A stretch of DNA of 64,000 nt from Arcticibacter pallidicorallinus (lineage in GTDB: Bacteria > Bacteroidota > Bacteroidia > Sphingobacteriales > Sphingobacteriaceae), in the NCBI RefSeq assembly GCF_003002875.1, contig NZ_PVTH01000003.1:186001-250000 (forward strand), read 5' to 3'. The translations under genes and the position numbers were made by a program. Below, in pieces: positions 30,268-40,309 of this stretch. The notes beneath the pieces were generated by a model. It was not told the DNA's origin. It ran no database searches and worked only from the letters and a program-made list of their open reading frames with translations. The stretch's first letter is position 1; every line of letters starts with the position of its first letter.

Positions 30268-33200
30268 TTACAACTTCCTCTTCACTTCAACGCTTTCGTA
30301 TGCCTCAACAATATCACCTTCTTTAATATCATTAAAGTTGTGAATGTTCAAACCACACTCGTAACCCTTCGCAACTTCCTTCACGTCATCTTTATAACGT
30401 TTCAATGAAGCCAGTTCGCCAGTGTAAACAACCACGCCATCGCGTACGATACGGATTTTGCTGTTACGGGTGATCTTTCCATCAAGAACCATACATCCTG
30501 CGATGGTACCGACCTTGCTGATCCTGAAGGTCTCACGAATTTCAACGTTCGCAACGATTTTCTCTTCAAACTCAGGAGCAAGCATACCTTCCATCGCTGC
30601 TTTCACTTCGTTGATCGCATCGTAGATGATTGAATACAGGCGGATGTCAATCGCTTCCTGCTCAGCCAGCTTACGCGCACTTGCAGAAGGACGAACCTGG
30701 AAACCAATGATGATCGCATCAGAAGCAGAAGCCAGCAATACGTCTGATTCAGAGATCTGACCTACCGACTTATGAATGATGTTCACCTGGATCTGCTCAG
30801 TAGACAGCTTCAGTAATGAGTCAGATAATGCCTCAATAGATCCATCCACGTCACCCTTAACGATGATGTTAAGCTCCTTAAAGTTTCCGATAGCCAAACG
30901 ACGACCGATTTCATCCAATGTAATATGTTTCTGAGTACGAAGACCCTGCTCACGCTGTAACTGCAGACGTTTGTTTGCGATATCACGGGCATCACTTTCA
31001 GTATCCATTGCGTTGAACTTGTCACCCGCAGTAGGAGCACCCGACATACCCAACACCTGAACCGGTGTTGACGGGCCAACTTCAGTAACACGCTGTCCGC
31101 GTTCATTGGTCAATGCCTTCACACGACCGCTATAGCTTCCTGCAAGGATCGGATCACCGATCTTCAGCGTACCTGCCTGAATCAATACCGTAGTAACAAT
31201 ACCACGTCCTTTATCAAGCGCTGCTTCGATAACGGTACCTGTAGCACGCTTATTCGGATTAGCTTTCAGATCAAGCAATTCAGCTTCCAGCAATACCTTC
31301 TCCAAAAGGAGATCCACGTTCATACCCGTCTTACCGGATATTTCCTGGCTCTGGTATTTACCACCCCAGTCTTCAACCAGGATGTTCATCTGAGAAAGCT
31401 GCTCACGGATTCTGTCTGTATTAGCTCCGGGCTTATCTACCTTACTAAAGGCAAATACTATCGGAACACCTGCTGCCTGAGCGTGGTTAATCGCCTCACG
31501 AGTCTGAGGCATCACGCTGTCGTCAGCTGCGATCACAATGATCGCGATATCTGTAATCTGAGCACCACGGGCACGCATCGCCGTAAAGGCCTCGTGACCG
31601 GGAGTATCCAGGAATGTTACCTTACGGCCGTCTTCCAGGCTTACCGCGTAAGCACCAATGTGCTGCGTAATACCACCTGCTTCACCACCTAACACGTTCG
31701 TTTTACGAACAAAGTCAAGTAATGATGTCTTACCGTGGTCAACGTGACCCATAACGGTAACAATTGGTGCGCGAGGTACCAAATCAGCCGGATCATCTTC
31801 AATCTCCAGACTGGCTTCTTCATCCTCAGGCTTAATAAATTCTACGTTATATCCGAATTCATCAGCAACGATAGTCAGCGTCTCCGCATCCAAACGTTGG
31901 TTGATTGACACGAACATCCCCAAACTCATACAAGTTGAGATAATCTGTGTCACCTGCACGTCCATCATGCTGGCTAGCTCATTTGCGGTAACAAACTCCG
32001 TAACCTTAAGCACTTTAGATTGTGCTTCTTTCTCCATTGCTGCTTCTTCAGCTGATTGAGCAACATCATCACGTTTCTGACGGCGGAATTTAGCCCGCTG
32101 AGCAAATTTACCTGATTTACCTGCACCACTTAAGCGGGCAAGCGTTGCTTTAATCTGATCCTGGATTTCCTTTTCTGTTGGTTCCTCCTTAGGACCTGAT
32201 GAAGCTCCATGATTTCTGGAACCTCCTCTGAAGTCTGGTCTTGCACCTCCCTGATTACGGGCACCGCCACGAAAATCTGGTCTTGGTCCGGTATGCGGAG
32301 CAGGAGCAGGACCGGCAGCACGAGGCTGACCCGTTCCCGATTGTCCTTGTCCAGGCTGGCCCGGAGCATCTTTACGCTTTCTTTTGCGTTTATGATCGTT
32401 GCTGGCTGCACTTGACGACGACGCTACAGGTTGATCCTTGCGGCGCGGCGGCTGTTGGGCAGACAAATCGATTTTACCGATAACATTCGGTCCGGTAAGT
32501 CGCTGCGCCCTGGCGCGAATGACTTCATTTTCCGGGGCATCTTCTGCCTTGGGACGTTGCTCAACAGACGGAGCAGCTGGAGTTTCCATATTCTGACTAG
32601 CAGAAGCTGCTGGTTTTGCCGCTTCTATATTTTCTTCTTTAACCGGAGCAACGCTCTCTGGGGCAGCCGCTTCTACCTGCTTCTCAACAGGTGCAGAGCT
32701 GACTACCGCAGCCGGTTCAGCTTTCGCTTCTTCAACTGGCGCAGCAACAACCTTTGGCTCTTCCTTAACTTGCGGAGCTTCCACTACGGGAGCTTCAGCC
32801 ACAGGCTTTACTTCTTTGATTTCTTCCTTCGGCTCTGGCTTAGGATCTTCCTGCTGTATCGCTACAGGCTCAGGTGCATCTTGCTTCGGCTCTGGCTTGA
32901 CTTCTTCAGGAGCTTTCACTTCCTGCTTAGGTCTGCGGTTTAACGCATCAAGATCGATCTTACCAACCACTTTCACACCCGAAACTGGCTTTTCTTCCTT
33001 CGGTGCTTCCGGAGCAGGTTTCTCTGCCGGAGCCTCTTTAGGCTTTTCTGCAGCTGGCGTATGACCAAACGATGATCCTGTATTCTTGATCAGAATCTCT
33101 TCCTGTTCGAATTCCTTTTCTCTACGAGGTTCCTGTCTTTCAGGAGCCGGAGATGCAGCGTCATCACGACGTATCTTCCCTATTACAATTTGCCTTGCTT

Positions 33201-33387
33201 CTTCACGGACAATCTTGTCGCCCTGATACTCCTGCAATAAAGCACCATACATTTCTTCTGAAAGCTTTGTATTGGGCTTTGCATCAACCTTAAAGCCTTT
33301 CTTGCTTAAAGATTCTACCGCAGTTGACAAACCAATATTAAGCTCCTTTGCAGCTTTTAGTAAATTTATACTTTTACCTTCTGACAT
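30268..33387 (-). CDS. infB: translation initiation factor IF-2
   Basis: 1039 residues. An IF2_N motif at the start ([20 protein letters not shown]) is followed by a 350-residue Pro/Glu/Ala/Lys-rich low-complexity region and a second IF2_N. Then comes the GTPase domain, with [20 protein letters not shown] (G1), [15 protein letters not shown] (G3) and FSKVDKPGA (G4), and the C-terminal tRNA-binding domains. It brings fMet-tRNA to the 30S subunit. The long acidic/basic linker is typical for Bacteroidota. It is the last gene of the rimP-nusA-infB operon. Confidence 0.98.
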
Positions 33388-33473: not shown

Positions 33474-34709
33474 TTATTCAAATTCCGCTCTTAATATACT
33501 CAACACTTCTTTCACTGTACTATCTTCCAAATCGGTACGCTTAACCAGCTCTTCAACGCTCAATTCAAGCACTGATTTTGCTGTATCAAGTCCTACTCTT
33601 TTGAACTCATCAATAATCCAGCCATCGATTTCATCTGAGAATTCTTCCAGATCCACATCCTCATCATCAGCATCAGCCTCACGGTACACATCAATCTCAT
33701 AACCTGTAAGCTTACCGGCTAATTTGATATTGTGTCCGCCACGTCCGATTGCTAAAGAAACCTGATCTGGTTTCAGATATACAGCCGCACGTTTGTCCGC
33801 ATCGTCCAATTTGATAGTCGTGATCTTAGCCGGACTTAATGCACGCTGAATGTATAGAGAGGCATTATTGGTGAAGTTAATCACGTCAATGTTCTCATTC
33901 TTCAGTTCTCTTACAATACCATGAATACGCGATCCTTTCATACCTACGCAGGCACCAACCGGATCGATACGATCGTCGTAAGACTCAACAGCAACTTTCG
34001 CTCTTTCTCCCGGCTCGCGAACGATCTTTTTGATCGTGATCAGACCGTCAAAGATCTCAGGTACTTCCAGTTCGAACAAACGCTGAAGAAAATCAGGCGC
34101 AGTACGCGAAATGATGATCTTCGGATTGGTATTCATCATATCAACCTTCAACACTACCGCTCTTACTGTATCACCTTTCTTATAATAATCCGCGGGGATT
34201 TGCTCTGTTTTCGGAAGCAATAATTCATTTCCTTCGTCATCCAAAACCAGGGTTTCTTTCTTCCAAACCTGGTAAACCTCGCCGGTTACAATCTCTCCAA
34301 CGCGATCTTTGTATTTACGGAAGATCTCATCTTTTTCCAACTCAAGCACTTTCGAAACCAAAGTTTGTCTAGCAGCCAGAATAGCGCGACGGCCGAACGT
34401 TTCCAAGGTGATCTGCTCGATGAAGTCGTCTCCAACTTCCAGTTCAGGATCGATCTTATGTGCGTCTGCCAGCTCAATTTCCAGGTCATCATCTTCTGAA
34501 AAACCGTCTTCCATTACGGTACGCGTTCTCCAGATTTCAAGGTCACCGTTATCGGGATTCACAATCACGTCACAGTTCTCATCTGTTCCGTACTTTTTAC
34601 GGATCATACTCCTGAACACTTCTTCCAACACACTGATGACGGTAGGACGGTCAATGTTCTTAAATTCTTTAAATTCCTGAAAAGAATCAATTAAATTAAT
34701 ATTGCTCAT
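33474..34709 (-). CDS. nusA: transcription termination/antitermination factor NusA
   Basis: 411 residues: N-terminal RNA-polymerase-binding domain (VISVLEEVFRSMIRKKYG), S1 domain (VGEIVTGEVYQVWKKE), two KH domains (GACVGMKGSRIHGIVREL and VSLAIGRGGHNIKLAGKL) and a C-terminal helix-hairpin-helix-like end (LELSVEELVKRTDLED). It modulates pausing, termination and ribosomal-operon antitermination. Its start is two bases from the rimP stop. Confidence 0.97.
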   Translation of the reverse strand: MSNINLIDSFQEFKEFKNIDRPTVISVLEEVFRSMIRKKYGTDENCDVIVNPDNGDLEIWRTRTVMEDGFSEDDDLEIELADAHKIDPELEVGDDFIEQITLETFGRRAILAARQTLVSKVLELEKDEIFRKYKDRVGEIVTGEVYQVWKKETLVLDDEGNELLLPKTEQIPADYYKKGDTVRAVVLKVDMMNTNPKIIISRTAPDFLQRLFELEVPEIFDGLITIKKIVREPGERAKVAVESYDDRIDPVGACVGMKGSRIHGIVRELKNENIDVINFTNNASLYIQRALSPAKITTIKLDDADKRAAVYLKPDQVSLAIGRGGHNIKLAGKLTGYEIDVYREADADDEDVDLEEFSDEIDGWIIDEFKRVGLDTAKSVLELSVEELVKRTDLEDSTVKEVLSILRAEFE

Positions 34710-34711
34710 TT

Positions 34712-35179
34712 CTACTTAAATGAAATTAAAACCTTTATTTCTGTTATCTGGTCAAAGGGAATGAGGTTCTGTTCCAAAACCGCTTTCTTTCCTTTTTCCT
34801 TTATGCTTTCTTCTATTAAAATCCCTGCTTCCTGAACTTCCAGAAGTTTACCTTCTCTTTTATCAGGCACATCTGCAAGTTTGACGGACAAACTGCGTCC
34901 AACATTCTTCTGATATTGTCGCTGCGTACTGAGCGGATAATCCAAACCCGGAGATGACACTTCCAGATGATAAGCCTGCTCAATTACGTTTTCCTCTTCG
35001 AGATGAAATCCCACTGTTCTGCTTATTGCAGCACAATCCGCTATTCCGATGCCGTTATCTCCGTCCATCAGAATAACCAACCTGCCGTTCGGGTGCATCT
35101 TTATATCCACTATAAAGAGTTCCGGACGGTCGGCTATTTTTTCTTCAACTAACTCTCGTACCCTTTGCTCTATATTCAT
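34712..35179 (-). CDS. rimP: ribosome maturation factor RimP
   Basis: 155 residues, normal length; needed for assembly of the 30S subunit. Motifs: RVRELVEEKIADRPELFIVD, LVILMDGDNGIGIADCAAIS and YHLEVSSPGLDYPL. It is first in rimP-nusA-infB, behind a consensus promoter and a leader hairpin (35197-35221) that may regulate the operon. Confidence 0.95.
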   Translation of the reverse strand: MNIEQRVRELVEEKIADRPELFIVDIKMHPNGRLVILMDGDNGIGIADCAAISRTVGFHLEEENVIEQAYHLEVSSPGLDYPLSTQRQYQKNVGRSLSVKLADVPDKREGKLLEVQEAGILIEESIKEKGKKAVLEQNLIPFDQITEIKVLISFK

Positions 35180-35196
35180 AACTACCGGTAAAAGAA

Positions 35197-35221
35197 AAGA
35201 GGGGACGTACTGCCCCCTCTT
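35197..35221 (-). promoter_or_regulatory. terminator-like hairpin in the rimP-nusA-infB leader
   Basis: An 8-bp stem (35197-35204 with 35214-35221, with an extra C opposite) is followed in the minus direction by a T-rich run that reaches the rimP start region. It lies between the promoter (-7 box at 35232-35239, expected start near 35225) and the ATG at 35179, so nearly the whole leader is the hairpin. It could act as an attenuator, an mRNA-stabilising 5' stem or a translational control element. Confidence 0.6.
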
Positions 35222-35231
35222 TCGATTTATG

Positions 35232-35262
35232 CAAATATAGTGATATATATGAATTTTGCAAA
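35232..35262 (-). promoter_or_regulatory. Bacteroidota-type promoter for rimP-nusA-infB
   Basis: On the reverse strand TTTG (35259-35262), a 19-base spacer and TATATTTG (35232-35239) are a full match to the TTTG/TAnnTTTG consensus. Confidence 0.72.
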
Positions 35263-35339: not shown

Positions 35340-35768
35340 TCAGTATAGACCCAGAAATCCTCGTCTTTCCATCCAGGATTGAAGGATGATGGTAGCTGCT
35401 ACCGTGTCAATCAAAGATTTGTTTTGCCGGTCGATCTTTTTCAGTCCGCTTTGAGATATAGCAGCGGAGGCCATTTTAGACGTAAAGCGTTCATCAATCC
35501 TTTCTATAGGCACTGTGGGAAATGCTTTTTTCAAGATGGTGATAAACCCCTTTACATGGGGTGTCGACTGCGAAGCTGTACCATCCATTTGACGAGGCTC
35601 ACCTACAACAAAGAGCTCCACCTCCTCGGTCTGCATGTAATTCTTCAGGAATTCGACCACATCTTTCGGACGAACGGTGGTCAATCCTGTCGCGATGATC
35701 TGCAACGGATCGGTCACTGCAACTCCTATTCTCTTGGTACCGTAATCAAATGCTACAACTCTGGCCAT
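35340..35768 (-). CDS. ruvX: putative pre-16S rRNA nuclease / Holliday-junction resolvase-like RuvX (YqgF)
   Basis: 142 residues with an RNase H-like fold: VVAFDYGTKRIGVAVTDPLQ (first catalytic Asp), VVGEPRQMDGTAS (catalytic Glu region) and IERIDERFTSKMA, DTVAATIILQSWME (final Asp). Length fits the family, which processes 16S rRNA 5' ends and has also been linked to recombination. It reads in the same direction as rimP, but a 160-base gap with the rimP promoter lies between. Confidence 0.93.
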   Translation of the reverse strand: MARVVAFDYGTKRIGVAVTDPLQIIATGLTTVRPKDVVEFLKNYMQTEEVELFVVGEPRQMDGTASQSTPHVKGFITILKKAFPTVPIERIDERFTSKMASAAISQSGLKKIDRQNKSLIDTVAATIILQSWMERRGFLGLY

Positions 35769-38674: not shown

Positions 38675-40309
38675 ATGGGATGTGGATCATGTTCAACCGG
38701 CGGCGGATGTACGCCGGCAGGCTGTAAAAGTAATGGCTCTTGCCTTACCGGCGGATGCAGCAAATTAGATGTTTACGATTGGCTGGCCCATATGGACCTT
38801 CCAACTAACTATAAACCTTTCAATATCATTGAGGTTAAATTCAAGGGATCGCGCAAAGATTTTTACATTAATCATGAGCATGCGTACCTGGAAATGGGCG
38901 ACCTGGTAGTAGTGGAAACTACAACAGGTGGTTATGACATTGGCCATGTTTCGCTTACCGGTGAGCTGGTGAGGATGCAGATCAAAAAGAAGCATCAGAA
39001 GCTGGATGATATCACCAGAAAGGTGATCAGAAGGGCAACACCTGCTGACGTGGATAAGTGGAAAGCGGCGAAGGATATGGAATGGGAGACGATGCACAAG
39101 GCGCGTACCCTTGCCCTGAATCTGGGCCTCTCTATGAAGATCAGCGACGTCGACTATCAGGGTGATAAAACCAAGGCAACCTTCTACTATACAGCAGAAG
39201 GGCGGGTGGATTTCCGTGAGCTCATCAAAAAAATGGCAGAAAACTTCCGTATCCGTATTGAGATGCGCCAGATCGGCATGAGGCAGGAAGCGAGCAGATT
39301 AGGCGGCTTAGGCTCCTGCGGTCGCGAACTTTGCTGCAGTACCTGGCTTACCGATTTCAAAACGGTGTCTACGTCGGCAGCAAGGTATCAGAATTTGTCT
39401 TTAAATACACTGAAACTAGCGGGACAATGTGGCAAGCTGAAGTGCTGCCTCAACTACGAGCTCGACACGTATATGGATGCGCTGAAGGATATTCCGGATG
39501 ATGTAGATCGTCTGGAGACGGTTATCGGCATGGCACGTCTTCAAAAGACCGATATCTTCAGGAAGCTCATGTGGTTCAGTTACCCGAATCAGGAAAACTG
39601 GATTCCTCTGGATATTTCACGAGTGAAGGAAATTCAGAAACTAAACAAAGAAGGCATCAAGCCTGAAGATCTGAAAGATGAGGCGGCTGAACTGGAACCG
39701 GTACAGGCTACCAAGATCCTGGATTATGAGAACGTTGTTGGGCAGGATAGTATCACCCGTTTGGATGAGCGTCAGAATAACAAGAAGAAAAAGAAGCGGA
39801 ATAATAAGAGCAGACCTAAGCAAGATGATGCTGGAGTTGCGCTAACGCCGTCGTCTCCGGTTGCAAAGCCTGCGAGGCCTGCTGCCAACAATCAGAGAAG
39901 AGAACAGAAGTCGGGCCCTCAGAACCCAAATCAGCGGAGAGAACAGAACGCTGCTGCTAACAGCCAGAAGAGAGAACAGAACCCTGCCGCTCCTCAAGCT
40001 GATAATAACCAGAAAAGGGAGCAGAATACTGCCGCTCCTCAGACTGACAACAACCAGAAGAAAGAGCAGAACGCGGCGGTTCATGCGGCAAACAGACAGA
40101 AAAGGGAGCAGAATACTGCCGCTCCTCAGACTGACAACAACCAGAAGAGAGAGCAGAACGCGGCGGTTCATGCGGCAAACAGACAGAAAAGGGAGCAGAA
40201 CGCTGATGCGCAAGCTGAAGGTGGAGAATCCGGCAATAAAAAGGCTCAGGGAAGTCGTCATTTCCGGAGGAATAAGAATAATAACAAGCCTAAACCTAAT
40301 GCAGAATAA
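38675..40309 (+). CDS. ricT: PSP1-domain protein RicT (YaaT-like), with repeat-rich C-terminal tail
   Basis: 544 residues. Two N-terminal Cys-rich segments (GCGSCSTGGGCTPAGCKSNG) precede the PSP1 core, with YLEMGDLVVVETTTGGYDIG, IRIEMRQIGMRQEASRLGG, CGRELCCSTWLTDFKTVS and CGKLKCCLNYELDTY. In Bacillus, RicT acts with RicA/RicF as an Fe-S complex in RNA maturation. From about residue 350 the protein becomes a polar Gln/Asn/Lys/Arg tail containing an imperfect repeat of 29 residues. The order holB-ricT-gldH is common in Bacteroidota. The stop overlaps the gldH start. Confidence 0.9.
   Translation: MGCGSCSTGGGCTPAGCKSNGSCLTGGCSKLDVYDWLAHMDLPTNYKPFNIIEVKFKGSRKDFYINHEHAYLEMGDLVVVETTTGGYDIGHVSLTGELVRMQIKKKHQKLDDITRKVIRRATPADVDKWKAAKDMEWETMHKARTLALNLGLSMKISDVDYQGDKTKATFYYTAEGRVDFRELIKKMAENFRIRIEMRQIGMRQEASRLGGLGSCGRELCCSTWLTDFKTVSTSAARYQNLSLNTLKLAGQCGKLKCCLNYELDTYMDALKDIPDDVDRLETVIGMARLQKTDIFRKLMWFSYPNQENWIPLDISRVKEIQKLNKEGIKPEDLKDEAAELEPVQATKILDYENVVGQDSITRLDERQNNKKKKKRNNKSRPKQDDAGVALTPSSPVAKPARPAANNQRREQKSGPQNPNQRREQNAAANSQKREQNPAAPQADNNQKREQNTAAPQTDNNQKKEQNAAVHAANRQKREQNTAAPQTDNNQKREQNAAVHAANRQKREQNADAQAEGGESGNKKAQGSRHFRRNKNNNKPKPNAE
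40021..40200 (+). repeat. 87-bp tandem repeat in the RicT tail
   Basis: The unit beginning at 40021 recurs almost exactly at 40108, with a further partial copy at 40195; period 87 bases (29 codons), keeping frame. It encodes alternating NQKREQNAAVHAANRQ and KREQNTAAPQTDNN type segments. Near-identity at DNA level suggests recent duplication, likely prone to slippage. Confidence 0.85.

Follow-up and report, generated by a model that had tools for sequence, protein, structure and literature searches.

A terminator-like hairpin in the rimP-nusA-infB leader of Bacteroidota, a probable site of NusA feedback

In the window (the whole 64,000-nucleotide stretch that was analysed), a hairpin stands between a promoter and the first codon of the rimP-nusA-infB operon. 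The three genes form a head-to-tail series on the minus strand, from 35179 down to 30268, and were confirmed with Pfam. The source genome belongs to the Sphingobacteriaceae, and the NusA of Arcticibacter svalbardensis, with 96% identity, is among the closest named NusA proteins. The features concerned are the following:

35340..35768, minus strand: ruvX, the upstream neighbour on the same strand, ending before the promoter (Pfam RuvX, 1.2e-37)
35257..35262, minus strand: upstream promoter element TTTGCA (sequence and sigma-70-type scan, 9/12 matches)
35232..35239, minus strand: -7 promoter box TATATTTG, of the TAnnTTTG class (sequence)
35195..35223, minus strand: probable terminator hairpin, 12-bp stem and 5-nt loop (fold energy, conservation and covariation)
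35190..35194, minus strand: T-rich exit CTTTT, which extends the TTTT of the 3' arm into an interrupted U-tract (sequence)
34712..35179, minus strand: rimP, first gene of the operon, 155 aa (Pfam RimP_N, E = 1e-14; ATG at 35179-35177)
33474..34709, minus strand: nusA, with N-terminal, S1 and KH domains (Pfam NusA_N, 9.7e-35)
30268..33387, minus strand: infB (Pfam IF-2, 1.9e-41)

The terminator-like hairpin that a first-pass annotation had reported between the promoter and the start of rimP is indeed present, with its stem at 35223-35195, its T-rich exit at 35194-35190 and the ATG beginning at 35179. On the minus strand, the -7 box is separated from the stem by 8 nt, where about five bases had been claimed, and the stem from the rimP ATG by 15 nt. 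The 40-nt leader folds into the 12-bp stem with an energy of -19.5 kcal/mol, compared with a mean of -7.5 kcal/mol for shuffled sequences (z = -4.9), and none of 200 shuffles was equally stable. The arms contain GGGC on the 5' side and GTCCC on the 3' side. The description of the promoter as full-consensus holds for the Bacteroidota box TAnnTTTG, which the pertinent part of PMC9723704 calls the sigmaA -7 box, but not for an E. coli sigma-70 promoter, for which the scan gave 9/12 matches at best.

Relatives were gathered at 111 loci, 110 of which had rimP, and these provided 103 distinct leaders. A hairpin followed by a T-tract was found in all of them (103/103), while 1 of 515 dinucleotide shuffles scored at least as high as its own leader and any qualifying hairpin appeared in 6 of 103 single shuffles. 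In 99/101 leaders with an anchored core (L050 and L082 were unanchored), TAnnTTTG was found in the 75 nt that precede the stem core, versus 7/101 shuffled sequences. The two leaders without it, L091 and L109, both have a tRNA-Gln gene just upstream. When a promoter box at most 45 nt upstream, a hairpin score of at least 17 and a start codon were required together, 98/103 rimP leaders qualified versus 1/307 windows of other genes, the lone match being the rimP of L074 taken from a different start codon. With hairpins in all 103 leaders and so few composites elsewhere, the arrangement is not due to chance. The distance from stem to start codon ranged from 9 to 69 nt across the 103 leaders.

A tRNA-Gln (TTG) gene lies immediately 5' of the putative rimP terminator in L091 (3352-3425), L100 (44-115) and L109 (3395-3468). 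In L091 and L109, which have no box in between, this arrangement recalls the metY tRNA ahead of E. coli rimP.

Base pairing in the stem was followed across these leaders. A MAFFT alignment of the 103 stems placed the 5' arms wrongly because loop lengths vary, and it was therefore replaced by anchored counts and by a set of 24 sequences selected for a 4-nt loop. The anchored counts covered 100 of the 103 rows (L015, L050 and L082 were dropped). The pair next to the conserved A-U pair at the base of the G-run was formed in 96 of these 100 leaders, as G-C (65), A-U (13), U-A (8), G-U (6) or C-G (4); shuffling gave a mean of 66 and a maximum of 75 paired leaders, and 0/2000 shuffles reached 96. 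Kinship alone can beat shuffles, yet the pair types differ among clades. The 24 leaders with equal loops had a covariation score of 0.149, versus 0.084 when shuffled and at most 0.038 when slid, while the number of pairs changed on both sides in this alignment (2) was not unusual (218/500 shuffles). The terminator is kept with a different stem in two Daejeonella leaders (L045 and L050) and in one further relative (L015), and other families likewise retain it with stems containing GUGGGG, GUCCCGC, AGCCCG, CGCCC, GUGAGCGCC or UGGGC. Read from the sequences, this pattern points to selection on the structure of the stem. The first-pass annotation had staked its proposal on conservation of the stem in close relatives; the stem is conserved and its pairs covary, so that this refutation fails. 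In these three leaders (L045:3296-3340, L050:3428-3474 and L015:2010-2052), the GGGG stem is swapped for one with a C-rich 5' side and a G-rich 3' side.

To see how far the hairpin extends in the phylum, we located rimP in 120 genomes and scanned the last 150 nt ahead of the Pfam match. A hairpin was present in 51/60 and 45/60 leaders, with 3/180 and 5/180 in the shuffles, and in 26/27 leaders of Bacteroidales (shuffles, 2/81), where 29 loci were examined of 37 genomes with rimP and 2 were too short. These samples are non-random: 30 loci were the top Pfam scorers among 296 genomes, 30 were the best of 51 selected genomes, and the remaining 60 were hand-picked among the matches listed so as to spread families. 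No qualifying hairpin was detected in 9/60, 15/60 and 1/27 leaders. A few of these misses reflect a strict detector, a shorter hairpin being visible by eye in L203, L222, L223, L248 and L259, and a few have no visible hairpin in the DNA upstream of rimP (L198, L228, L229, L233 and L237). One Bacteroidales match (L284) lies far from the start codon and may be due to chance. We also built a covariance model (R1) from the 24 leaders. In the source genome its best match was the rimP leader (38.8 bits; next, 29.2 bits), but over 296 genomes, with few candidates scored per genome, 119 had any match at E <= 0.1. R1 missed many rimP leaders and picked up ordinary terminators, and leaders were therefore counted by locating rimP instead.

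We identify the element as the form that the published 'rimP-leader' attenuator takes in Bacteroidota. In the pertinent passages of Naville and Gautheret 2010 (PMC2965389), this leader has a G-rich 5' arm, a C-rich 3' arm and a T-stretch directly before rimP of rimP-nusA-infB; it has no antiterminator, its stem sequence is unusually conserved, and NusA was proposed as the effector. Like it, our element lies directly 5' of rimP, the first gene of the operon, consists of a terminator hairpin followed by a T-stretch, and is without visible antiterminator (0/99, see below); its distance to the gene, 15 nt in the window and 9-69 nt across the 103 leaders, falls in the published range of 4-130 nt. 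The published GGGc(...)gCCC motif is found strictly on both arms in 13/103 leaders and on the 5' arm only in 28/103. The sequences differ in that 87/103 of our leaders have GGGG[A/G]C with G[C/T]CCC, and in that other Bacteroidota families have unrelated stems, some of them C-rich on the 5' side. The published description covers Firmicutes and Gammaproteobacteria, and the main text of PMC2965389 contains no word starting with 'Bacteroid'. The present data would thus extend the attenuator to almost all of the Bacteroidota sampled, in a minimal version consisting of promoter, stop signal and gene.

Rfam holds a 102-position model for the same gene and with the same name (RF01770, rimP). It gave no match in the window at its cut-off, and no match was listed for the locus at E up to 10; genome-wide, there were 22 weak matches, none above the gathering cut-off of 47 bits, and the best of them (24.7 bits) lies elsewhere. 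Weak matches of the leader to other Rfam families, such as MicC (35 bits versus a cut-off of 90), were rejected as chance products of AT-rich sequence and a hairpin. A structured 5' element upstream of rimP, with no Rfam match, appears for Flavobacterium psychrophilum and other genera of Flavobacteriaceae in the relevant part of PMC9723704; it is named in a list there, and is likened to ours by gene and phylum alone. No fuller account of this leader in Bacteroidota was found in the literature searched, most subscription journals being outside its scope.

Could the hairpin simply end an upstream transcription unit? Upstream orientation was taken only from genes checked by hand and with Pfam, as a greedy ORF caller proved unreliable, predicting a false antisense ORF across ruvX in the window itself. 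A divergent upstream gene, genuine according to Pfam, is found in L090, L103 and L111 (an HD-domain gene, beyond which lies lpxD in L090), in L066 (TonB-dependent receptor) and in L018 (holin-family membrane protein); in L092, L096, L099 and L106, a divergent ORF of this kind was recognised by its length and start. Since the neighbour is divergent in several genomes, the hairpin is not an upstream gene's terminator, and its position after the promoter also speaks against this.

Transcription generally starts about 5 nt after a -7 box of this type. With this assumed start, the median length of the stretch ahead of the stem is 8 nt for L001-L082 and 20 nt for L083-L111. A search for an antiterminator found 0/99 leaders in which an upstream stretch could form at least 4 G-C pairs with the 5' arm. 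The suggestion of a 'switch', understood as a choice between alternative RNA folds, is therefore not supported, and regulation, if there is any, must act via the polymerase or via a hairpin-bound protein.

Taken together, these features make it very probable that the hairpin functions as an intrinsic terminator, and we infer that termination takes place there in vivo. Placed as it is at the beginning of the rimP-nusA-infB transcript, it would make a polymerase leaving the promoter either stop after about 35-45 nt, releasing a tiny RNA, or continue into rimP, nusA and infB. Polymerase-bound NusA would raise the fraction that stops, and NusA made from the operon would thereby limit its own synthesis. 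NusA is the likely effector, judging from B. subtilis, E. coli and S. agalactiae, and a leader terminator serving as a NusA feedback brake is, on the whole, the explanation that we favour. Autoregulation of NusA in some bacteria, which the first-pass annotation had invoked, is on record: the relevant passages of PMC12288461 describe B. subtilis NusA as autoregulating by termination in its own leader. In S. agalactiae, according to the part of PMC4448216 that deals with rimP-nusA, transcription was mapped to stop at an intrinsic terminator 31 nt downstream of the start, a short and a long RNA arise from one start, and feedback by NusA was proposed; this leader is of another phylum, with experimental RNA ends, and is likened to ours by description, not by sequence. 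NusA also regulates the E. coli metY-rimP-nusA-infB operon, as stated in the pertinent part of PMC6511841. The E. coli leader, which we read in L199, has a GGGC/GCCC hairpin and a T-run directly before rimP, but it is longer, follows a tRNA gene and has tandem terminators (t1 and t2). With no room for an RNA switch, the Bacteroidota leader would provide a clean test bed for a feedback point set by a polymerase-bound factor alone.

We compared the rimP leaders with 67 gene-end terminators from the same DNA. The longest T run was modestly shorter in the leaders (mean 4.8 versus 5.8), the T count in the first 10 positions was nearly equal (7.4 versus 7.6), the stem score was 25.5 versus 28, and a six-T run was absent from the first ten positions in 80/103 leaders versus 28/67 gene-end terminators; the p-values of this comparison treat related sequences as independent. 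According to the section of PMC12288461 on its targets, B. subtilis NusA acts chiefly on terminators with weak hairpins or interrupted U-tracts. The weaker hairpin and U-run of the leaders fit this preference and count for the NusA reading; against it, the stem in the window is strong (12 bp) and is no weak hairpin. The motif TTNTTT (N not T) was observed in the T-rich tail of 42/103 rimP leaders and 15/67 gene-end terminators; the relevant lines of PMC8060035 describe it as the NusG pause motif of B. subtilis.

The structural data would fit equally well a constitutive partial terminator, which would sense nothing and would lower and steady the output of the operon or block read-through from upstream, where ruvX lies on the same strand in the window. 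We consider this rather unlikely, since the hairpin is located after the promoter and persists in the leaders with divergent upstream genes listed above, and since other phyla offer known or proposed cases of NusA feedback on this operon. In 39 genomes with both structures, a common 6-mer was found in 60% of pairs for the 5' arm of the rimP leader versus 9% for terminators at the end of infB, and in 12-13% of pairs for the 12-nt segments flanking the stem; the 37% obtained for the segment upstream of the promoter is ascribed to AT-rich low complexity. Thus, the stem sequence is conserved more than pairing requires, which a plain terminator fails to explain and which counts against the explanation favoured above. 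We tentatively raise the possibility, well short of an expectation, that the stem is a sequence-specific signal besides a terminator, each large clade having its own fixed stem word (GGGGAC/GUCCCC in Bacteroidia) that would be read on the nascent RNA by the RNA-binding domains of NusA or by another partner. If so, feedback would hit the terminator of the rimP leader while sparing ordinary ones. This extra conservation is directly testable.

A hairpin at the 5' end of an mRNA may also protect it or tune its translation with no terminator being involved, and the stem does lie near the inferred 5' end (median 8 nt after the assumed start in L001-L082). This explanation is improbable, as a stability hairpin has no need of the T-tract that follows the stem in 103/103 leaders and the distance between stem and start codon is variable (9-69 nt). 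It is very unlikely that the leader responds to free 30S subunits or to factors of ribosome assembly (RimP, IF2), as the first-pass annotation had suggested for ribosome assembly: the gene content of the operon is all that speaks for it, the low 6-mer sharing of the flanking segments gives no sign of a larger conserved fold, and none of the known ribosomal leaders in Rfam reached its cut-off. That the stem, which is also an inverted repeat in the DNA, is a palindrome for a repressor binding just downstream of the promoter is scarcely credible, since the spacing of G-run and C-run ranges between 4 and 11 nt, many leaders outside L001-L082 have a T-tract on one side only, and other families replace the stem sequence while keeping the T-tract and the place.

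Elsewhere in the window, an ORF of 544 aa (38675-40309) contains an imperfect tandem repeat at 39959-40203, which codes for a tail of the QKREQN type. The repeat is made of 42-45 nt units, with one 87-nt unit being 99% alike.
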